Assembly: GCA_927441425.1 (NCBI GenBank)
Contig: CAKMKG010000016.1
Span: 1-59,892, forward strand
Length of the DNA stretch: 59,892 bases
Direction: 5' to 3'
Source: an uncultured Bacillota bacterium
Lineage (GTDB): Bacteria > Bacillota > Clostridia > Peptostreptococcales > Anaerovoracaceae
In this document: positions 2 to 44,769 of the stretch, one piece after another
Position numbering within the stretch: the first letter of the stretch is position 1
How the letters are laid out: every line of letters starts with the position of its first letter
Program-made: the position numbers and the translations under genes
The notes under the pieces: model-generated
The model's database searches: none
Seen by the model: only the letters and a program-made list of their open reading frames with translations
What the model was told of the DNA's origin: nothing

Positions 2-595
2 GAAACCATTTACTGTGAAGGGAAGACGCCGGAGCAGGTGGCTGCTATTATTCAAATCATGAAAGAAAATAATTCCAATGTTCTGGGAACCAGAGCCTCA
101 GTAGAGGTTTATGAGAAAGTAAGGGAGATTTCTCCCGAAGCAGTATATCATCCTCTTGCGCGCATCTTTGTCGTAAAGAAAAAAGAAGAGAGGCTTTCGG
201 AGAAGATGATCGCAGTGATTACAGCCGGTACCGCAGATATTCCTGTTGCAGAAGAAGCCGCCATTACTGCCGAGACCATGGGAAATCAAGTAGACCGCAT
301 TTTTGATGTCGGAGTGGCTGGAATCCATCGACTCTTTGCCAGACTGGACCGGATTCGAGCTGCCAATGTGATCATCGTCGTTGCAGGAATGGAGGGTGCG
401 CTTGCCAGTGTGGTCGGAGGACTTGTGGATAAGCCGGTTATCGCGGTTCCCACAAGCATAGGATACGGATCAAATTTTGGAGGAGTATCAGCGCTGCTGA
501 CCATGCTCAACAGCTGTGCTTCAGGAGTTGCGGTTGTGAATATCGATAACGGATTTGGTGCAGGGTATCTGGCATCGAATATTAATCAGCTATAA
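2..595 (+). CDS. larB: LarB, nickel-pincer cofactor biosynthesis (5' truncated by window edge)
   Basis: LarB is a carboxylase/hydrolase that acts on nicotinic acid adenine dinucleotide in the first step of nickel-pincer nucleotide synthesis. The frame is open from base 2 and 197 residues are visible; the family is about 245 residues, so the N-terminus lies outside the window. A GTG near base 38 is internal, because conserved-looking sequence continues upstream of it. The C-terminal two thirds resemble PurE-type carboxylases (glycine-rich [21 protein letters not shown]). The family's catalytic cysteine fits the Cys in LNSCASG near the end. larC starts 13 bases downstream. The cofactor serves LarA-type racemases; no larA is present in the window. 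Confidence 0.93.
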
Positions 596-10758: not shown

Positions 10759-10992
10759 TCAATCTGCAGTTTGCTTGCCGGCATGATCCATATGATAATT
10801 TTCCTTCATTATAAGCTGACCGATAGGCACAATTTCGTATCCATCCGATCGCAGCTTATCCAGTATACCGGGCAAATATTCTTCCACATGTTCTGCATTA
10901 TTGTGAAACAAAACGATGGATCCGGGCTTCACATTTCTTGTCACCCTGTCTACAATCTGTTCTGCCGTGATCTCTTTCCAATCCAGACTATC
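10759..10992 (-). pseudogene. pdaB: 3' fragment of interrupted PdaB-like polysaccharide deacetylase
   Basis: The last 77 codons of a NodB-fold deacetylase. It begins with DSLDWKEITAEQ (catalytic motif 4, D-x-x-D-W) and continues to SIVLFHNNAEH (motif 5), ending with GYEIVPIGQLI, the usual family C-terminus. The missing N-terminal 179 codons are at 17211-17747, separated by the 6.2-kb element. Fused at the GA dinucleotide, the two parts read in frame as 256 residues, the normal PdaB length. Within the element an AAGGAG site and an in-frame ATG at 11016 sit directly after the recombinase gene, so this fragment could be translated as an 86-residue peptide, but it lacks motifs 1-3. Confidence 0.9.
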
Positions 10993-11011
10993 AATACTGG
11001 ATTGGAAATAC
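10972..11011. other. attR: right junction of the hydrogenase element
   Basis: The crossover dinucleotide (GA on the minus strand, TC on plus) is at 10991-10992. Bases up to 10990 are deacetylase sequence and those from 10993 belong to the element. The element half-site on the minus strand is GTATTTCCAATCCAGTATT, which is an inverted match (15 of 19) to the half-site at the other junction. A 12-base inverted repeat (TTTCCAATCCAG / CTGGATTGGAAA) spans this junction. Confidence 0.75.
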
Positions 11012-11026
11012 AACATGAAGTACTCC

Positions 11027-12526
11027 TTAAACGTTCCATTCAATATTTATTTCTGAATTTTTAACGGTTATTTGTTTTATCATGCTACTAGCCAGGATCT
11101 TTTTCTGTTCCACTGTACTATTATCCCAATCCTCCATACATTTTTTTAGATCGCCGTAATTTGTCATTCTGGTTTCACTGATCTCCTTTTCAAGCTCCTT
11201 CTGTAAGTATTTCTTTTCCGCTATGAGTGTTTCAGCTTTAGCGTTTAAAAGATTGGTTAGTGCTTCTCCGCCCATGCAGATTTGATTAATAATATGATCA
11301 ATTTGTTTTTCTACACCAATTAGCTTTATTTTAATAGCATTCATCCACATGGTATCCGTCTCTTTATAATTGCATATGGTATTGCTGATGTCATTTATTC
11401 TATCGAATATTTGGATTCTAACAATTTCTTCAATCTCTTCGACATTCGTGCCTTTTCCATATTCATCACAAGCATTGTAAGAACGATGTCCACTGCAGTA
11501 AAACTTTTTATACTTGCCTTTTGCAGTTACGACAACCAAACTGTAATTACAATGCCCGCACTTTATGATCCCGGATAACCAACTATTTTTTCCCTGTCCC
11601 AACTTGCCAATTTGTAAATTTTTGCTGAGCCTTTCCTGACATCTTAACCATGTTCCGGAATCAATGATGCCATCATGTAAAGCAACGGAAAGAGTATGGT
11701 TTTCCACATTCGTATATTTCCTTTCATTGCGGCGGCGCTTCCCATATAAAAAGCAGCCCTTTTCTCCAGTGAATTCCGATATGTCATTTTCTATCGTTAC
11801 TCCTCGACTTGTGTAATATGTGTATACGTCTGCATCAGCCTTCACATAGGAAGGATTATTCAGAAGCTTGCTTATCTTTGAAGATTCCCAATTCCCACCT
11901 TTGGCGGCCTTTACTCCTATTTTGTTAAGATATTTCGAGATATCGCTCAAGCTCATGTTCGCTGTATAAAGCTCATATATCTTAAGTAAGCTAGGCAGTT
12001 GATCCTCGTCAGGAGCATACTTGCAGGTTTTATACCCATCAACACGAATTGGTACCTTTTTAAACCCATATGGGGCTGGGCCACCCATATAATATCCTTT
12101 TTTTGCTCTTGCATAATAGTTATCGGTTATTCTTGTTTGTATGGTCTCTCTTTCTAGTTGGGCAAAAACCATAATAATATGTAGCATTGCTCTTCCAATG
12201 GGAGTTGACGTATCGAAGGTCTCTGTTGCTGATGCGAATTTAACCTTAAACTTCTCTAGCGTGCTTATAATATCTGAAAAATCTAATATCGAACGGCTGA
12301 TTCGGTCCACTTTGTAAACCACAAGCTTTGTGTAGAGACCACTTTCAAAATCTTTTATCATTTTTTCAAAAGCAGGTCTGTGTGTATTGCTGCCACTAAA
12401 TCCTTTATCTGTGTAAATTTGATATGACTCTCCATCCTCTAGCGTTTTTTTACAGAAATTTATTTGCGTCTCGATGGAGATGCTTTCTTTTTTGTCTACA
12501 GATTGACGACCATAAAGAGCAATCAT
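11027..12526 (-). CDS. Large serine recombinase (site-specific integrase/excisionase)
   Basis: 499-residue recombinase. The catalytic domain is N-terminal: nucleophile Ser9 in ALYGRQS, then the VDRISR arginine motif near residues 65-70 and the TSTPIGRAML helix region. The Recombinase domain follows (GGPAPYGFKK), then a zinc ribbon at about 318-355 (IKCGHC, FYCSG, CDEYG) and a C-terminal coiled coil with a Lys/Glu-rich stretch. This is the architecture of phage integrases, TnpX and the SpoIVCA recombinase that excises the sigK-interrupting skin element. It is encoded at the element edge and is the obvious enzyme for the att sites described. Its start codon overlaps the stop of the 51-codon ORF (ATGA). 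Confidence 0.96.
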   Translation of the reverse strand: MIALYGRQSVDKKESISIETQINFCKKTLEDGESYQIYTDKGFSGSNTHRPAFEKMIKDFESGLYTKLVVYKVDRISRSILDFSDIISTLEKFKVKFASATETFDTSTPIGRAMLHIIMVFAQLERETIQTRITDNYYARAKKGYYMGGPAPYGFKKVPIRVDGYKTCKYAPDEDQLPSLLKIYELYTANMSLSDISKYLNKIGVKAAKGGNWESSKISKLLNNPSYVKADADVYTYYTSRGVTIENDISEFTGEKGCFLYGKRRRNERKYTNVENHTLSVALHDGIIDSGTWLRCQERLSKNLQIGKLGQGKNSWLSGIIKCGHCNYSLVVVTAKGKYKKFYCSGHRSYNACDEYGKGTNVEEIEEIVRIQIFDRINDISNTICNYKETDTMWMNAIKIKLIGVEKQIDHIINQICMGGEALTNLLNAKAETLIAEKKYLQKELEKEISETRMTNYGDLKKCMEDWDNSTVEQKKILASSMIKQITVKNSEINIEWNV

Positions 12527-12678
12527 TTTACAATTTTCCTTACCATATTTAACTTGTTATAGTCTTGCAAAATGTGTTTGATTAAAGCCTGCTCGGATAT
12601 CGCTTTCTCTTTTTCCGAAGAGTAAACCGGCCACGAATTTTTTACCGTGTATCCAGACACTTTTTTTTCGTCATCCAT
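12523..12678 (-). CDS. 51-residue protein coupled to the recombinase; candidate directionality factor
   Basis: The ATG at 12678 has GAGGAGG 8 bases upstream; a longer frame reaching 12780 lacks such a site. The product is small and charged, with a central SSEKEKAISEQALIKHIL helix-like stretch, no membrane segment and no family I recognise. The ATGA overlap with the recombinase implies coupled expression. Recombination directionality factors of serine integrases are often small proteins encoded beside the integrase, so that role is plausible but unproven. Confidence 0.6.
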   Translation of the reverse strand: MDDEKKVSGYTVKNSWPVYSSEKEKAISEQALIKHILQDYNKLNMVRKIVK

Positions 12679-13067
12679 AATACAATCCTCCTCACTCTTT
12701 TTAGAACCATATGCCAAGTGAGGCTTGTTTATGTATGCAAGATAAGATTGTAGTACTACTTCCACATAAGAGTTAGACAATGTGAATTAATTAACTAAAT
12801 GAAATAAGCACTCGTTTTTAATGTTAAAAAACGTTTCAAAAATTGAATGAATTTCAACAAAATACAGGCATTCAGGTGCCTTGGCAAAACTCATAAGAAA
12901 CTCACAACCCGCACTAAAGATGGTGTTTATTGAATAATTAGAATATTATAACAGTAAATATTTAGAAATTAATTGTTGAAATTTGACGAGGAAAGCGGTA
13001 TGATAATAGTGTTAAAATAATAACAAAACGCTGTCGCATATTATTAATCTACGAGGAGGCATATTTT
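12679..13067. other. Divergent intergenic region inside the element
   Basis: 389 bases between the recombinase operon (minus) and the hydrogenase operon (plus). It is AT-rich, with one short hairpin (AGGCA/TGCCT near 12872-12886) and the hydrogenase promoter at its right end. No coding frame is convincing. Confidence 0.6.
12976..13004 (+). promoter_or_regulatory. Promoter of hydCBA
   Basis: TTGAAA (12976-12981), a 17-base spacer and TATGAT (12999-13004) make a good vegetative promoter about 55 bases upstream of the hydC ribosome site. TTGTTGAAATTTGACGA overlaps the -35 and has weak dyad symmetry reminiscent of a Rex redox operator, but the spacing is wrong for the consensus. Confidence 0.6.
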
Positions 13068-13562
13068 ATGGACAAAACGATATCATATGAAAAATTAGAC
13101 GAAATTTTATCCCAGTATCCATCGGAAAATCCTGCTATCGTTGCAATCTTACAAGATATTCAGGAGGAATATCGTTATCTTCCAAAGGAAATATTTGCAT
13201 ATTTAGCAGAGAAATTAAAGATTAGCATCGCTAAAATATATAGTGTTGCTACTTTCTATGAAAATTTCTCACTAACACCAAAGGGTGACTATATCATAAA
13301 AATCTGCGATGGCACTGCATGTCATGTTAGAAAATCGATTCCTATCCTAGAAGCATTGAGAAAAGAGCTAGGGCTTAGCGCTGCGAAGCATACAACCGAT
13401 GACTTAGGCTTTACTGTAGAAACAGTTTCTTGTTTAGGGGCTTGCGGTCTAGCACCGGTTATCACAGTAAATGAGAAAGTGTATGCTTCCATGACACCGG
13501 AAAAAACAGTGGCACTTCTTAATGAAATTAGAAAGGAGAGAGCAAATGAAAATAAAGAATAG
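13068..13562 (+). CDS. hydC: HydC, NuoE-like [2Fe-2S] subunit of NAD(H)-linked [FeFe]-hydrogenase
   Basis: 164-residue thioredoxin-like ferredoxin of the NuoE/24-kDa family. Ligands C80, C85 (CDGTAC), C122 and C126 (CLGAC) have the expected C-x4-C...C-x3-C spacing. It passes electrons within the HydABC complex. GAGGAGG lies 9 bases before ATG. It overlaps hydB by 17 bases. As first gene of the operon on the inserted element, it is cargo rather than an ancestral neighbour of the deacetylase. Confidence 0.95.
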   Translation: MDKTISYEKLDEILSQYPSENPAIVAILQDIQEEYRYLPKEIFAYLAEKLKISIAKIYSVATFYENFSLTPKGDYIIKICDGTACHVRKSIPILEALRKELGLSAAKHTTDDLGFTVETVSCLGACGLAPVITVNEKVYASMTPEKTVALLNEIRKERANENKE

Positions 13563-15423
13563 AAACGAACTGATCGCTCAAAGAGAAAACTTCTTAAAAG
13601 AACTAAAAAAACAAAAAAAGAAGATTTACGTTTGCGCAGGAACCGGATGTGTGGCGGGTGGTTCGTTAGAGATTTTTGAAAAATTAAAGGAAGTAATTGA
13701 AGCAAAGAATATTCATTGTGAAGTTGAGCTGAAGACGGAAGGGCAGGATAATAGTATCGGATTAAAGCAGAGCGGCTGTCACGGATTCTGCGAAATGGGC
13801 CCCCTACTTCGAATCGAGCCTATGAAGCTGTTGTATTTAAAGGTTTCGTTGGATGATTGTGAAGAAATCGTTGAAAAATCAATTATTCATGATGAATTGG
13901 TTGAACGGCTGGTATATAAAAAAGATGGCATATCCTACTCTGTGCAAGAAGAAATCCCATTCTATAAAAATCAAAATAGATTAGTTCTGGAAGACTGCGG
14001 GCAAATCGATGCGGAATCCATTGAGGAATATATTGCCTACGGAGGCTACCGTGCATTGGAAAAATGTCTGTTTGATATTTCCGGGGAAGAAATTATCAAG
14101 ATCATTTCTGACGCTGTACTTAGAGGTAGGGGAGGCGGAGGCTTCCCGGCAGGCAGAAAGTGGACACAAGTTAGAGCACAGAAAGAACCTGTTAAGTACA
14201 TCGTGTGTAACGGTGACGAAGGAGATCCTGGAGCATTCATGGATCGGAGCATCATGGAAGGTGATCCCCACAAAATGTTGGAAGGCATGATGATAGCAGC
14301 AATCTCTTCTGGTTCCCGTGAAGGATATATCTATGTTAGGGCAGAATATCCCCTTGCCATCAAAAGGCTAAGATTGGCCATTGAAAATGCAAAACAAGTG
14401 GGCCTTCTTGGAGAGAACATCCTAGGAACAGATTTTAGCTTTGATATTAAAATTGTAAAGGGTGCCGGTGCCTTCGTTTGTGGAGAAGGAAGTGCACTTA
14501 CTGTTTCCATTGAAGGAGATAGAGGCATGCCTAGAGTTAAGCCGCCAAGAACAGTTGAACAGGGACTTTATGGCAAGCCAACATTACTAAATAATGTTGA
14601 AACCTTTGCAAATGTACCCATGATTATAATGAACGGTGCAGACTGGTATAAATCCATCGGGCCTGAAAAAAGTCCGGGAACAAAGGCATTTGCCTTGACT
14701 GGGAATATCGTAAACACAGGTCTCATTGAGGTGCCAATGGGAACTACATTAAAGAAGATAATCTTTGACATTGGAGGGGGTATCAGAGATGGCAAGGGCT
14801 TTAAAGCAGTTCAAATTGGTGGGCCGTCAGGTGGTTGCTTAACAAAGGAGCATTTGGATTTACCCCTGGACTTTGATAGTCTGAAAAAGGTAGGAGCTAT
14901 GATCGGCTCTGGTGGACTTGTCGTAATGGATGATGATACTTGCATGGTTGAAGTCGCTCGTTTCTTTATGAATTTTACTCAGAACGAATCTTGCGGAAAA
15001 TGTGTACCTTGTAGAGAAGGCACCAGAAGAATGCTGGAAATTTTGGAAAGAATTGTTCAAGGCAAGGGAAAACTGGAAGATTTGGACTTACTGGAAGAAT
15101 TGGCGGCAACCATTTCTGAAACATCTCTATGCGGACTGGGAAAAACAGCGGCAAGCCCGGTTGTTTCCACTTTGAAATATTTTAAGGACGAATATATCGA
15201 ACATATCGTCAATAAAAAATGTCCGACTAAAACATGTCAAGCGTTGAAGACCATATCAATTGAAGCGGAACTTTGTAAGGGATGTACAAAATGTGCCAAA
15301 ATTTGCCCGGTAGCTGCCATACATGGGAAAGTGAAAGAGCCTTTTGTGATTGACCAAGAAAAATGCATCAAATGTGGCGCATGCATTGACAGTTGTAGCT
15401 TCAAGGCCATCAAGGAGGATTAA
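13546..15423 (+). CDS. hydB: HydB, NuoF-like NAD(H)/FMN subunit of [FeFe]-hydrogenase
   Basis: 625 residues from the ATG at 13546 (AAGGAGAG upstream). Order of domains: N-terminal thioredoxin-like [2Fe-2S] region (CAGTGC... CHGFCEMGP); the NuoF core with the NADH/FMN loops GRGGGGFPAGRKW and CNGDEGDPGAFMDR; the SLBB-like region; the [4Fe-4S] ligand set ESCGKCVPCREG; and a C-terminal two-cluster ferredoxin (CKGCTKCAKICP, CIKCGACIDSC). This architecture is that of HydB in trimeric hydrogenases, both electron-bifurcating (NADH plus ferredoxin) and non-bifurcating; the sequence cannot settle which. Confidence 0.96.
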   Translation: MKIKNRNELIAQRENFLKELKKQKKKIYVCAGTGCVAGGSLEIFEKLKEVIEAKNIHCEVELKTEGQDNSIGLKQSGCHGFCEMGPLLRIEPMKLLYLKVSLDDCEEIVEKSIIHDELVERLVYKKDGISYSVQEEIPFYKNQNRLVLEDCGQIDAESIEEYIAYGGYRALEKCLFDISGEEIIKIISDAVLRGRGGGGFPAGRKWTQVRAQKEPVKYIVCNGDEGDPGAFMDRSIMEGDPHKMLEGMMIAAISSGSREGYIYVRAEYPLAIKRLRLAIENAKQVGLLGENILGTDFSFDIKIVKGAGAFVCGEGSALTVSIEGDRGMPRVKPPRTVEQGLYGKPTLLNNVETFANVPMIIMNGADWYKSIGPEKSPGTKAFALTGNIVNTGLIEVPMGTTLKKIIFDIGGGIRDGKGFKAVQIGGPSGGCLTKEHLDLPLDFDSLKKVGAMIGSGGLVVMDDDTCMVEVARFFMNFTQNESCGKCVPCREGTRRMLEILERIVQGKGKLEDLDLLEELAATISETSLCGLGKTAASPVVSTLKYFKDEYIEHIVNKKCPTKTCQALKTISIEAELCKGCTKCAKICPVAAIHGKVKEPFVIDQEKCIKCGACIDSCSFKAIKED

Positions 15424-15425
15424 TT

Positions 15426-17117
15426 ATGAATAGAAAATATATGACAATAGATGGAATCCCTGCGCCAATCGATGGCGAGAAGAATATTTTAGATATTATC
15501 AGAAAAGTTGGCATTGAACTTCCAACATTCTGTTATTACTCCGAGCTTTCCGTCTATGGCGCTTGCAGAATGTGTGTGGTAGAGGATAAGCATGGAGAAA
15601 TTATGACATCTTGTTCTACTCCTCCGAGGTCAGGGATGGAGATTAAAACCAACACGCCCAAGCTACAGCAGCATAGAAAGATGATTCTGGAACTCATTTT
15701 AGCGGATCACTGTCGTGACTGTACGACTTGTGAAAAAAACTTCAAATGCAAACTGCAATCCATTGCTCAAAAATTTGGGTTAAGAGAAGTGAGGTTTGAA
15801 AACTATACTCCATTGGAGAAAGGGGACACTTCTTCAAAATCCATCGTTCGAGACAAGAACAAATGTATTCTTTGTGGGGACTGTGTAAGAATGTGCTCAG
15901 AAATCCAAAAGGTTGGAGCGATTGATTTTGCCTTTAGAGGCTCCAAGATGCAAATAACCCCTGCCTTCGATATGCCCATTGCAGAAACGAATTGCGTAAA
16001 TTGCGGACAGTGTTCAGCAATATGTCCCACAGGAGCCATCGGCGTGAAGGATGATACAAAGAAGGTCTGGCAGGATCTTTATGATGACAATACTATTATG
16101 GTTGCACAGATCGCTCCGGCGGTTAGAGTTGCCCTGGGAGATGAATTTGGTCTCCCTGTTGGAAGCAATGTCATGGGGAAAATGGTAAGCGCACTGAAAA
16201 GGATGGGCTTTGATAAGGTATATGATACTGCAACAGGAGCAGACCTTACGGTAATTGAAGAGGCAAATGAATTTTTAGACAGACTTAGAAAAGGTGAAAG
16301 ATTGCCATTGTTTACCTCTTGTTGTCCTGCTTGGTTTCAATATGCAGAAATTAACCATCAGGATATGATGGATCATCTTTCTAGTTGTAAATCTCCTATG
16401 CAGATGTTCGGATCGGTATTAAAAGAACATGCAAAGAATAATATGCCAAGGAAAAAGGCAAAGAAGACCAAGGTTGTTGCCATCATGCCCTGTACAGCAA
16501 AAAAATATGAAGTGGCGAGAGAAGAATTTCGATTTGAGGAAGAACAGACCATTGATTACGCCATAACAACACAGGAGCTTGCAAACATGATCAGAGAATC
16601 TGGGATTGTTTTTTCCGAAATCTTACCTGAAGCAGTTGATATGCCATTTGGTATTGCCAGTGGTTCAGGCATTATCTTTGGTGTGACAGGTGGTGTAACG
16701 GAAGCCGTAATTCGCTATATTATGGGTGAGGAAGCAAAGAATTACTTAAAAGCAATTGCATTTACCGGAGTTCGTGGATTTGATGGCGTCAAGGAAGCGA
16801 TTATTCCTTACAATGGAAGGGAGTTAAAGTTAGCAATCGTAAGCGGTTTAGCCAATGCGAATACATTGGTTGAAAAAATAAAGGCAGGAGAATGCCACTA
16901 TGACTTTGTAGAGGTTATGGCATGCCCAGGAGGATGTATTTGCGGCGCAGGTCAGCCATATGCTGAAAACAGAGCCAAGAATGAAAGGGCCAACGAAATG
17001 TATGAAGCTGACAGAATGTCAAATGTTAAGATCTCTAGCGAAAATCCAACAACAACAGCGCTATATAACGGGATTCTTAAGGGACACAAAGCACATGATT
17101 TATTGCACTATAAGTAA
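15426..17117 (+). CDS. hydA: HydA, catalytic [FeFe]-hydrogenase subunit
   Basis: 563 residues. N-terminal [2Fe-2S] domain (CYYSELSVYGACRMC), His-ligated [4Fe-4S] region (HCRDCTTC), two [4Fe-4S] clusters (CILCGDCVRMC; CVNCGQCSAICP), then the H-cluster domain with all three signatures: TSCCPAW (about residue 298), MPCTAKKYE (about 355) and ACPGGCICGAGQP (about 498). It lacks the extra C-terminal [2Fe-2S] domain of Thermotoga maritima HydA. Maturation needs HydE, HydF and HydG, none of which is on the element, so host maturases must supply the H-cluster. Confidence 0.97.
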   Translation: MNRKYMTIDGIPAPIDGEKNILDIIRKVGIELPTFCYYSELSVYGACRMCVVEDKHGEIMTSCSTPPRSGMEIKTNTPKLQQHRKMILELILADHCRDCTTCEKNFKCKLQSIAQKFGLREVRFENYTPLEKGDTSSKSIVRDKNKCILCGDCVRMCSEIQKVGAIDFAFRGSKMQITPAFDMPIAETNCVNCGQCSAICPTGAIGVKDDTKKVWQDLYDDNTIMVAQIAPAVRVALGDEFGLPVGSNVMGKMVSALKRMGFDKVYDTATGADLTVIEEANEFLDRLRKGERLPLFTSCCPAWFQYAEINHQDMMDHLSSCKSPMQMFGSVLKEHAKNNMPRKKAKKTKVVAIMPCTAKKYEVAREEFRFEEEQTIDYAITTQELANMIRESGIVFSEILPEAVDMPFGIASGSGIIFGVTGGVTEAVIRYIMGEEAKNYLKAIAFTGVRGFDGVKEAIIPYNGRELKLAIVSGLANANTLVEKIKAGECHYDFVEVMACPGGCICGAGQPYAENRAKNERANEMYEADRMSNVKISSENPTTTALYNGILKGHKAHDLLHYK

Positions 17118-17160
17118 AACCATTTACTATAACAATGATCAAATTCATGATTGTTTTTAT

Positions 17161-17196
17161 GCGGACAGTCCTTTTGGTCTGTCCGCGTTGTATTTT
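17161..17196 (+). terminator. Terminator of hydCBA at the element edge
   Basis: The 8-base perfect stem GCGGACAG / CTGTCCGC (17161-17168, 17179-17186) is followed by a T-rich GTTGTATTTT. It ends 13 bases before the crossover dinucleotide, so the element closes its own transcription unit. Confidence 0.8.
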
Positions 17197-17229
17197 AAAT
17201 CCAATGTTTCCACATCCCATTGAATGACA
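17190..17229. other. attL: left junction of the hydrogenase element
   Basis: The crossover dinucleotide (TC on plus, GA on minus) is at 17209-17210, with deacetylase sequence from 17211 upward. The element half-site is AACATTGGATTTAAAATAC on the minus strand. Its reverse complement matches the attR half-site at 15 of 19 positions. The deacetylase frame runs 17 codons into the element before a stop at 17157. Confidence 0.75.
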
Positions 17230-17772
17230 TAATACCCATTGGTCTCGCAGACCTCGATAAGGCTGTTGTTATAAGCGCCAAAGGGAGGCCGGAAAACGGT
17301 TGGTTTCTGTCCCGTTATTTTTTCAATTGCTTCCTCTGCACCCTTCAGTTCCTTCGTCATATCTTCTATCGAAAGTTTTGCCATATTCGGATGGGTTGAG
17401 GAATGATTCCCGATCTCGTGACCTCTGTTATAGATCTCAAGTACATCATCGGGGAACTTTTCCGCCCAGAATTGGACCATAAAGAAGGTGGTCTTGACTT
17501 GATACTGATCAAGAATATCAAGAATTTCCTTTGTGTGTTCATTTCCCCACGCACAGTCGAAGCTGATTGCTATTTTTTTCTCCTTCATATCAACCGAATA
17601 GATGGGCAGCTTTTTATCCTGACCGAAAACGGAATCAAACCCCCACTCAGTCGTACCATAAAGCCCAGCAGTAACGATCAAAACAGCAATAACACAGATT
17701 GCCAGCGTCATCTTTATAATAGAACGGTTCCTTATAGATCTCCTCACTTTTCAATCCCTCCATCCCAAAGAA

Positions 17773-17801
17773 CACAATGTTTTCCTCGCTACATTTTATT
17801 C
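17773..17801 (-). promoter_or_regulatory. Possible sporulation (sigma F/G-like) promoter of pdaB
   Basis: On the minus strand GAATA (17801-17797), a 17-base spacer and CATTGTG (17779-17773) resemble forespore sigma promoters and lie 26 bases before the GTG. The last base of the -10 differs from the usual A. Tentative. Confidence 0.3.
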
Positions 17802-17879
17802 GTAGGGCCGGTTTGCCATGCATGTTTTATCGGTACATTGACTTGTTAAACATCCTTTTGCGAAACCTTTCGGACAGCT

Positions 17880-17908
17880 TTGACATGGGAATGCTTTCGG
17901 AGTATGAT
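17880..17908 (+). promoter_or_regulatory. Vegetative promoter upstream of the HD-domain gene
   Basis: TTGACA (17880-17885), a 17-base spacer and TATGAT (17903-17908), 82 bases before the ATG. Confidence 0.75.
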
Positions 17909-17990
17909 TATGGTATGATACTTTAACTTGTCAAAACAACTGAGCTGACAGGAGGTTCGCAGAAAAAGAAGGGATGGTTTACGAAGACAT

Positions 17991-18575
17991 ATGTTAGTAG
18001 AAGATTATACTGAAAAAGAAACAAATGCACTAACGAGAGCACAGGCATGGGCGCTTTTAAACGAGTATAACAAGGATCCGTTTCAGCTGAAGCATGCCCT
18101 CATCATGGAAGGTACAATGAAGTACTTTTCCAAGTTGCTTGGATATGGAGGTGATGAGGATTTCTGGGGAATCGTCGGACTGCTGCACGATCTGGATTTT
18201 GGGATGTATCCGGAGCAGCATTGTATCAAACAGCGGGAAATTATGGAGGAGCATGGAATAGATGAACGAATCATCCGTGCAACAGTGTGTCATGGATATG
18301 GACTAACCGCTGTCGAGATTAAACCGGAGCATGAGATGGAGAAGGTGCTGTTTGCAACGGATGAATTGACCGGTTTGATCGGTGCGGTGGCATTGATGCG
18401 CCCATCAAAAAGCGTGTCGGACCTGGAACTGAAATCTGTAAAAAAGAAATATAAAACCTTGAATTTTGCAGCGGGATGTTCCCGAGAGGTTATCGAGCAG
18501 GGAGCTGAAATGCTTGGTTGGGAGCTGGATGATCTGATAGAAAAGACGATTTTGGCAATGAGAACCTGCGAATAA
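17991..18575 (+). CDS. HD-domain (HDIG-type) metal-dependent phosphohydrolase
   Basis: 194-residue cytosolic protein. The HD motif is in GLLHDLDFG (about residues 64-72), with an upstream histidine (KHALIMEG) and downstream H (CHGYG) completing a metal-binding HD fold, then FATDELTGLI. The family hydrolyses nucleotides or phosphoesters, and the substrate is unknown. The ribosome site before the first in-frame ATG is weak. A clear promoter lies upstream and the ABM gene 42 bases downstream, probably cotranscribed. Confidence 0.8.
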   Translation: MLVEDYTEKETNALTRAQAWALLNEYNKDPFQLKHALIMEGTMKYFSKLLGYGGDEDFWGIVGLLHDLDFGMYPEQHCIKQREIMEEHGIDERIIRATVCHGYGLTAVEIKPEHEMEKVLFATDELTGLIGAVALMRPSKSVSDLELKSVKKKYKTLNFAAGCSREVIEQGAEMLGWELDDLIEKTILAMRTCE

Positions 18576-43290: not shown

Positions 43291-44769
43291 TTGGAAAACC
43301 TAAATATATATGAAAGCATAGCTGAGAGAACTCAGGGTGACATTTATGTAGGGGTCGTAGGACCGGTAAGGACCGGAAAATCAACCTTCATTAAGCGGTT
43401 TATGGATCTGCTCGTTATTCCAAATGTCACAAATACATATGTAAAGGAAAGAGTCATAGATGAGCTTCCGCAAAGCGGGGCCGGCAGAACCATAACGACG
43501 ACTGAGCCAAAATTTGTGCCGGCGGAAGCAGTATCACTTGAACTTCCGGGTAACATCAATTTCAAAGTACGAATGGTGGATTGCGTAGGGTATATGGTAA
43601 AAAGCGCGCTTGGCCATCAGGAAGATGGAAAAGCAAGAATGGTAAATACGCCCTGGCAGGAACATAGAATACCTTTTGAAGAGGCAGCCGAAATCGGAAC
43701 AAGAAAAGTGATCGCAGACCATTCCACGATAGGAATCGTCGTTACAACAGATGGATCGATTGGAGAGATCGACAGGGAAAGCTTTCTACCCGCCGAGGAA
43801 AGAGTCGTCGAGGAATTAAGGGAACTGAATAAACCCTTTGTTGTTGTTCTAAACTCCATGACCCCAGAAGGAGAAGAAGCGCAAGAAATAAGAAGTCTGA
43901 TGGAAGAAAAATATAGAGTTCCGGTGATTGCAGCGAATTGTGCAAGGATGAACTATCAGGTTCTCACCCATATCCTTAGTGAAACGCTGTATGAGTTCCC
44001 TGCAGCACAGATTAAATTTAATCTTCCCGGCTTTATTGAAGGTCTGCCCAACGATCACTGGATCAAGGCCACGATCATCGACAATATTAAGGAATGGAGC
44101 AAGACCTTTGAGAATGTCAGAGATATCAGAAATACCATAAACTCGCTGGAGGATGGAAACGTAGTGCAGGCTATCGAAGTCAGCAATATGGATTTGGGCA
44201 CCGGTGATATCGAGGTAATCGTTACACCTGTAGCCGGATTGTTCTACAAGGTGATAGAGGAAATTATGGGAAGGGAAGTTAACAATGATTATCAGTTCTT
44301 TAACTTAATCAAGGAATTTTCCCAAGATAAAAGGTCATATGATAAGATCAAGAGCGCTATGGCGCAGGTTGAGGAAACCGGATATGGCATTGTGCAGCCG
44401 AAGCTCTCGGAAATGGTTCTCGAGGAGCCGGAGATCTTCAAGCAGGGAAACAAATTCGGTGTCAGGCTGAAGGCCAAAGCACCATCCCTCCATCTGATTC
44501 AAACAAACATCACAACGGAAGTCTCTCCTGTTGTCGGCAGCGAAAAGCAAAGTGAAGATCTCATCCGATATCTTCTGACGGAATTTGAAAACAATCCTTC
44601 GAAGATTTGGGAAACAAACCTCTTCGGAAAGTCGCTCTATGAGATGGTAACTGAGCAAATGGAAAATAAATTAACAAATGTTCCGGATCATGCACGATTT
44701 AAAATACAGCGGGCGCTACAGAAAATTTCTGACGAAGGCAAAGAGTATTTGATCTGTATTGTGCTGTAA
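43291..44769 (+). CDS. spoIVA: Stage IV sporulation protein A
   Basis: Spore-coat morphogenetic ATPase that forms the basement layer around the forespore. TTG at 43291 is chosen: GGAGGAGG lies 8 bases upstream and it gives 492 residues, the length of the B. subtilis protein. An in-frame GTG at 43261 would place that ribosome site inside the gene. P-loop GPVRTGKST at residues 24-32. It is expressed in the mother cell in Bacillus. Its presence marks the organism as an endospore former. Confidence 0.97.
   Translation: MENLNIYESIAERTQGDIYVGVVGPVRTGKSTFIKRFMDLLVIPNVTNTYVKERVIDELPQSGAGRTITTTEPKFVPAEAVSLELPGNINFKVRMVDCVGYMVKSALGHQEDGKARMVNTPWQEHRIPFEEAAEIGTRKVIADHSTIGIVVTTDGSIGEIDRESFLPAEERVVEELRELNKPFVVVLNSMTPEGEEAQEIRSLMEEKYRVPVIAANCARMNYQVLTHILSETLYEFPAAQIKFNLPGFIEGLPNDHWIKATIIDNIKEWSKTFENVRDIRNTINSLEDGNVVQAIEVSNMDLGTGDIEVIVTPVAGLFYKVIEEIMGREVNNDYQFFNLIKEFSQDKRSYDKIKSAMAQVEETGYGIVQPKLSEMVLEEPEIFKQGNKFGVRLKAKAPSLHLIQTNITTEVSPVVGSEKQSEDLIRYLLTEFENNPSKIWETNLFGKSLYEMVTEQMENKLTNVPDHARFKIQRALQKISDEGKEYLICIVL

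Follow-up and report, generated by a model that had tools for sequence, protein, structure and literature searches.

The DNA analysed here, referred to as the window, is a 59,892-nt stretch (positions 1-59,892 of contig CAKMKG010000016.1) from an uncultured bacterium of the family Anaerovoracaceae. It carries a pdaB gene, encoding a deacetylase of the PdaB type with the NodB fold, which is divided into two pieces by a 6.2-kb element with a recombinase gene of its own. The split gene and the recombination module of the element comprise the following features (window coordinates are used throughout).

17211..17747, minus strand: N-terminal half of pdaB, the first 179 codons, with a GTG start; the open reading frame (ORF) holding it scores 162.5 bits against TIGR02764
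10759..10992, minus strand: C-terminal half of pdaB, the last 77 codons and the stop; the ORF holding it scores 65.8 bits against TIGR02764
10993..17210, no strand: the intervening element, 6,218 bp, with a GA core at 17209-17210 and again at 10991-10992
17187..17208, no strand: element end beside the N-terminal half, one putative arm of the element's attachment site (attP); inverted repeat I7, dyad 18/22
10993..11014, no strand: element end beside the C-terminal half, the other putative attP arm; inverted repeat I7, dyad 18/22
11027..12526, minus strand: large serine recombinase, 499 aa, an open gene beside the C-terminal half; Pfam Resolvase, Recombinase and Zn_ribbon_recom
12523..12678, minus strand: ORF of 51 aa, a candidate recombination directionality factor, overlapping the recombinase start by 4 bp, with a homologue at the same place in Anaerovorax odorimutans

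The GA dinucleotide is common to both break points, standing 3' of the N-terminal half and forming the first bases of the C-terminal half, and the break falls inside the codon for the first Asp of D-S-L-D-W, motif 4 of the enzyme. Joining the halves at GA yields a 256-codon frame that scores 234.5 bits against TIGR02764, just below the cut-off of 237.4, with the next best model at 157 bits, and that aligns without a gap across the join to its best solved relative (7y51). A first-pass annotation of the same DNA had proposed these coordinates and strands, the 179 and 77 codons, the shared GA and the 256-codon join, all of which agree with our recomputation, and had placed the cut within the Asp codon, as the sequence confirms. 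It had also credited the joined protein with all five catalytic motifs, which is generous: motif 1 reads SFDCAW rather than TFDD, which we take to be its canonical form. The idea that the pieces come from two unrelated deacetylases was rejected, both on the score of the join relative to the pieces (234.5 bits versus 162.5 and 65.8) and because pdaB genes of the same genus are colinear across the join.

The large serine recombinase that the first-pass annotation had seen at one edge of the element is encoded by an open gene with all three expected domains. Degraded residues, which that annotation would have counted against its own reading, are not seen in the catalytic region, where the protein keeps all invariant positions of a 13-member alignment (its own sequence included); the nucleophile is presumably Ser9, judging by its position in the R-Q-S motif. 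Its best NCBIfam model is XisF of the fdxN element, at 119 bits far below the cut-off of 375. Read inwards from GA, the two element ends are inverted repeats of each other around the core, with 18 of 22 positions matching (the dyad score used below). The repeat was found blindly, and shifted positions gave 5.7 ± 2.1 matches, none of them up to 18. According to the available text of PMC5595907, the attP site of a large serine recombinase is expected to be an imperfect inverted repeat around a central dinucleotide, and the element ends match this form at the level of sequence.

The interrupted gene is likely a spore-formation gene. We take ybaN of Bacillus subtilis to be pdaB. SpoIIID binding upstream of ybaN is mentioned for that species in the text available to us, and the accessible part of PMC4703394 lists pdaB in the sigma-E regulon. 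The host of the window element is taken for a spore former because the same window contains, outside the element, the following marker gene.

43291..44766, plus strand: spoIVA, a marker of spore formers; TIGR02836 693.6 bits, cut-off 459.9

With its position within a sporulation gene, a site-specific recombinase of its own and a core shared by both ends, at which precise removal restores the gene, the window element has, as far as its sequence goes, the structure of a skin-type intervening element. Prophage-like content, as in skin, SPbeta and yin, was not recognised in the window element by a Pfam scan, but it is not essential to an intervening element, as gin is without it in the account given in the available text of PMC5595907. 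A prophage identity was rejected on two grounds: the Pfam scan of the element's ORFs recognised no phage structural gene and no transfer or other phage gene, and relatives of the recombinase in 1,077 phage records are too distant, none being more than 60% identical and the best reaching 32.8% among the matches listed. No relative of the recombinase was confirmed in the viral_contigs collection.

Empty sites in close relatives support the proposed join. Among the eight other genomes of the genus group, the two pdaB halves abut with zero bases between them, judged by tblastn end points, in six (G001, G002, G004, G005, G007 and G008); five of these genes are whole and in G002 the contig ends inside the gene, while G003 and G006 gave no readable copy of pdaB across the break site. 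The first-pass annotation had named uninterrupted homologues that fail to align across the join as evidence that would speak against it; the six readable genes all abut exactly. The gene order OadB - pdaB - 194-aa ORF (17991) - 109-aa ORF (18579) is found in the window and also, without the element, in G005. Because the same-genus sites are empty, the element either entered the lineage of the window or was lost in the others; it is probably a recent arrival in this genus. The block of pdaB and the 194-aa ORF (window 10759-18575) is inverted in the window and G005 relative to G001, G002, G004, G007 and G008. Two contigs of G002 (C241 and C196, at the ends of L034 and L035) overlap exactly by 99 bp, one of them beginning one base before the GA core. 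The arrangement resembles a fork in the assembly at the empty site, possibly the result of a mixed population, and we keep it as a hint only; a third contig at the fork was not found. An unsplit pdaB in G063 was rejected as an excised copy, being only 70-77% identical to the split one and hence another gene or from another strain.

To place the window element among its relatives, two samples were drawn. For the first, 84,980 species, represented by one genome apiece, were searched with the window recombinase, which gave 32 loci. The best was in A. odorimutans DSM 5092 (73%), whose sister element in pdaB measures 5.3 kb; the rest reached 33-44% and came mostly from records with the labels Clostridiales or Oscillospiraceae. 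Plain tblastn detected PdaB pieces at 22 of the 32 loci. In a search of the 32 whole genomes with TIGR02764, pdaB proved to be broken near profile position 125-130 in most: both halves were present in 24 (23 and G063), one half ending at the core in four (G067, G069, G074 and G077), and no half was found by this search in the remaining four (G070, G086, G088 and G090). In all 24 genomes, as in the window, both sides carry GA at the first Asp codon of D-S-L-D-W, and their dyads range from 12 to 20 of 22, the weakest being those of G084 and G091 (12 each). The second sample was collected with a profile of 13 recombinases (A1, E <= 1e-90), which matched nine of 296 genomes of the family (including the window's and G111, the latter with the same contig coordinates as A. 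odorimutans) and 52 of 391 genomes of the class (the window's included). Thirty-six profile-matched genomes, i.e. 7/8 of the family and 29/51 of the class with the window's own set aside, were followed with TIGR02764. A split pdaB was present in at least 13 of them, broken at the same GA in 13/13 and with dyads of 13-20 of 22, and a split asparagine synthase gene in four; for the other 19 the target gene was unplaced among the matches listed, where small pdaB fragments may have been missed. Several of these 19 genomes keep an unsplit PdaB-like gene, and the wider recombinase clade is therefore not tied to pdaB alone.

Altogether, both halves were found in 38 genomes including the window, and in every one of the 38 the break is at the same GA. 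Twenty-four genomes have the halves on one contig and 14 on two contigs, where their pairing is presumed; in the one-contig cases the element measures from 3.6 kb (G116 and G183) to about 59 kb (G092). Relatives of the window recombinase residing in split pdaB genes across Clostridia appear to constitute a new pattern, and no report of an interrupted pdaB was found in the literature searched, a search outside which most subscription journals lie. As a control for the dyad score, a second C-terminal fragment of G071 paired with the N-terminal half of that genome gave only 5/22. The G071 assembly (L131 and L132) holds two different C-terminal pdaB fragments, the one with this score misfitting the element end of the N-terminal half, which may point to a second strain or another copy. 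A match of a pdaB C-terminal fragment in G546 was dismissed as spurious. Patterns for motifs 1, 2, 3 and 5 matched 31, 25, 17 and 33 of 37 joined proteins, the patterns being too narrow (R-L-P-Y-G, for example, was disallowed).

One could imagine that the element never leaves and the halves are made as two polypeptides, working together or separately, and both halves are indeed open in most genomes examined. The cut, however, runs through motif 4 of a single-domain enzyme whose solved relatives align straight across it, and the tails that trail the N-terminal half or lead into the C-terminal half vary among genomes in length and sequence. We consider this arrangement very improbable.

The association between recombinase and gene seems to be of long standing. 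Pairwise distances of the recombinases and the joined PdaB proteins correlate across 24 genomes (Mantel r 0.78, p about 0.0002), also when the three most distant genomes (G000, G061 and G062) are left out (r 0.57, p about 0.0002), and the pdaB-specific recombinase family is probably old. In the sole close pair, G081 and G085, the ratio of nonsynonymous to synonymous substitution rates (dN/dS) is 0.030 for the N-terminal and 0.063 for the C-terminal half; the median ratios of nonsynonymous to synonymous differences (pN/pS) over 276 pairs are 0.43 and 0.49.

The remainder of the window element is occupied by an operon for subunits of the NuoE, NuoF and [FeFe]-hydrogenase types, which runs divergently from the small ORF and the recombinase gene.

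12976..13004, plus strand: candidate sigma-70-type promoter of the hydrogenase operon, TTGAAA-17-TATGAT, from a motif scan; weak taken alone, as the scanned stretch has 35 such sites versus 20.8 expected
13068..13562, plus strand: NuoE/HndA-type subunit; PF01257 1.7e-50
13522..15423, plus strand: NuoF/HndC-type subunit; PF01512 and PF10589
15426..17117, plus strand: [FeFe] hydrogenase catalytic subunit, group A; PF02906 3.9e-95; TIGR02512 463.5 bits, cut-off 405.95

The last of these scores bears out the first-pass annotation, which had placed a hydrogenase inside the element; against the narrower A6 model NF040763 the protein reaches 695.3 bits, below the cut-off of 765. It is 85% identical to a hydrogenase of A. 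odorimutans that belongs to an ordinary operon on a different contig from pdaB, while the hydrogenases of same-genus genomes and those elsewhere in its own genome reach 57-60% at best. The joined PdaB proteins of the window and A. odorimutans share only 66%, a difference suggestive of transfer. Together with the recent look of the insertion, given the six empty sites, this would suit an ordinary site-specific mobile island that knocked out pdaB, having arrived at a conserved catalytic codon through the preference of its integrase, with the gene never restored. Such an island would hardly be expected to leave both halves preserved in 38 genomes and diverging in step with the recombinase, and the low dN/dS of the close pair speaks against it too, as do the coupled small ORF and the sigma-E-like motifs considered next. 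We therefore regard a simple knock-out as unlikely.

The start of the recombinase gene could be located in 42 of the 44 loci tried, and in 38 of these it is preceded by a small ORF (called at 37-114 aa) that has a ribosome-binding-like sequence, the criterion being an end between 17 bp before and 4 bp after the recombinase start; 100 shuffles of the same DNA gave a mean of 3.8/42 and a maximum of 9/42. A short motif of the type I-K-H-T-H-P occurs in 29 of the 42 loci (shuffled mean 0.06). A protein search for homologues of the window's small ORF returned two matches, one of them the window's own. Upstream regions were scanned for KMATATT-13..15-CATACAWT, which we take to be the sigma-E consensus, at a threshold of p <= 0.05. 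Matches were obtained in 18 of 42 regions, many of which come from related genomes and hence are not independent, versus 0-3 of 42 for eight permuted motifs; G116 and G183 have the exact motif. Upstream of the small ORF, the window and A. odorimutans have ACATAAACAAGCCT and CATAT-GTT in common at matching spacing, and the candidate site is as follows.

12706..12734, minus strand: candidate sigma-E-like promoter for the small ORF and the recombinase gene, ACATAAA-14-CATATGGT, its blocks conserved with A. odorimutans

In Clostridioides difficile, the directionality factor of skin is a 72-aa protein under sigma-E and SpoIIID, as described in the available text of PMC5025042, and by analogy the pdaB element would fit this scheme with its two genes side by side.

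The element might also leave at a low rate in any phase of growth through its own mobility, the repair of pdaB being a by-product untimed by sporulation. Its attachment sites and recombinase look functional, to judge from their sequences, and the contig fork in G002 could reflect a mixed population. The enrichment of sigma-E-like motifs upstream of the small ORF and the recombinase gene is not what such an element would lead one to expect, nor is its long association with one gene, and the Pfam scan recognised no transfer or phage gene in the window element. We thus find untimed excision quite unlikely as well.

Our preferred reading, which we hold to be rather likely, is that a skin-type element splits pdaB and is predicted to be excised by its own recombinase and a likely 51-aa partner in the mother cell, restoring the 256-codon frame. 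Excision during sporulation, as to both the event and its timing, is predicted as the best explanation of the structure, and the window element is best read as a member of a new, widespread pdaB-specific family. The skin-type interpretation of the first-pass annotation gains support from the same break in 37 further genomes, the small ORF coupled to the recombinase and the sigma-E-like motifs upstream. In the proposed sequence of events, expression of the small ORF and the recombinase gene would be turned on by sigma-E in the mother cell; as a recombination directionality factor, the small protein would direct the recombinase to recombination between the attachment sites at the element's two borders (attL x attR); and excision would yield a circle and a whole pdaB. 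In the forespore the chromosome would retain the element, which would thus pass through the spore, and the hydrogenase operon would be a vegetative cargo lost by the mother cell.

Several observations weigh against this reading. An unrestricted search for in-phase joins in 25 pairings ranked the expected GA first in 17; in six pairs (G062, G068, G071, G075, G084 and G087) another dinucleotide of the same dyad, its placing judged by eye, equalled or outranked GA, G072 gave a GA at another place, and the remaining odd pairing, G071b, was a wrong one. In the motif-based join test the position was set by W-[DN]-V and D-S-L-D-W, so that the GA on the C-terminal side follows from the Asp codon and the joined frame is in phase by construction, leaving as free tests the GA on the N-terminal side, the dyad score and the breaking of the gene at this place; the joins of G109, which reads WSR and not WDV, and G522 were placed with a looser pattern. 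Some relatives look decayed or incomplete, such as G076, whose N-terminal half is frameshifted, and the joined frames of G076 (170 codons), G073 (222) and G083 (227) are short. Outside the close pair, most dN/dS values approach saturation and are low to a moderate degree only, with 0.2-1.05 for the 22 closest pairs, and in the lineage of the window the insertion is perhaps so young that selection has had no time to test it. In G109, G505 and G510 the small ORF was not detected, and in G623 it is doubtful; the motif shared by 29 loci is absent from the small ORFs of the window and A. odorimutans, which resemble each other; the sigma-E-like site of the window is weak, with a better-scoring match in the same region; and no significant sigma-E-like site was detected upstream of pdaB in the eight regions scanned. 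The circle junction and the joined site had no match (0 and 0) in viral_contigs, a collection poorly suited to show them.

A sister clade of recombinases is associated with an asparagine synthase gene, a candidate for a second mother-cell gene. This gene is split after codon 468 in G482 (L226), G546 (L216), G585 (L227) and G704 (L215), all of one other genus, where the recombinases score about 540 bits against the 13-member profile; the match of the G704 pieces to TIGR01536 stops at position 456 and resumes at 458. In the three elements scored, the best dyads match at 16-18 of 22 positions. G482 and G704 have GA as the core, and in G546 CG is tied with another candidate, only in-phase joins being considered.

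Besides the window element, we could name the cargo of a few pdaB elements. That of G183 (L195) carries a threonine ammonia-lyase and a Rid protein, and that of G510 (L197) an H2O-forming NADH oxidase (753 bits, cut-off 600), with the same ORF visible in G623 (L196). The elements of G623, G510 and G183 are among the smallest (3.6-3.9 kb) and contain the recombinase and one metabolic unit, with little more. In G408 (L213:3736-8522), a gene for NifH (454 bits, cut-off 394) lies between the recombinase gene and the C-terminal half, beside NifB-, NifE/D- and NifK-like genes.

Comparisons with known systems are confined to what the available text of each source describes. Skin in sigK of C. difficile (recombinase CD1231, directionality factor CD1234; PMC5025042) likewise combines a large serine recombinase with a small partner and reconstitutes a sporulation gene, as is predicted for pdaB, control of the partner by sigma-E being shown there and predicted for the pdaB element; the latter differs in the gene interrupted, in the small ORF standing directly before the recombinase, in its size of 6.2 kb and in having metabolic cargo and no recognised phage gene. 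Gin in gerE of Bacillus cereus ATCC10987 (PMC5595907), also without phage genes, resembles the pdaB element in its imperfect inverted repeat around a central dinucleotide and in the use of a recombinase with an extra factor, a candidate in the case of pdaB, whereas it measures 28.6 kb, has three recombinases and a restriction system in place of one recombinase and a hydrogenase, and sits in another gene and in a host of another order of bacteria. Yin in yabG (C. botulinum), vfbin in spoVFB and SPbeta in spsM (PMC10747680) are likewise integrative DNA inside sporulation genes, but they are prophage-like and named from one or few strains, while the break in pdaB concerns one codon in 38 genomes of many genera. 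The heterocyst elements in nifD, hupL and fdxN (PMC4874684) show developmental excision by an element-borne recombinase, as is predicted for pdaB; there nitrogenase and hydrogenase genes are interrupted, whereas pdaB elements have such genes inside as cargo.

If the preferred reading holds, pdaB would join the short list of interrupted sporulation genes, and with the same codon broken in 38 genomes and co-diverging recombinases it would be no curiosity of a single strain. A split pdaB is easily read by annotators as a pseudogene and its host as a poor sporulator. We would also put forward, tentatively and as the less probable case, that in many Clostridia an anciently inherited, dedicated recombinase family keeps a mother-cell gene (pdaB or, in the sister clade, asparagine synthase) split until sporulation, and that the same event discards vegetative redox or nitrogen genes. 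The discarded package would be the [FeFe]-hydrogenase operon in the window and nitrogenase-like genes or the NADH oxidase elsewhere, so that programmed loss of DNA would rewire the mother cell. The metabolic cargo prompts one to ask whether its loss benefits the mother cell, and with the pattern present in 38 genomes it becomes testable whether spore formation in anaerobes routinely involves programmed DNA excision.

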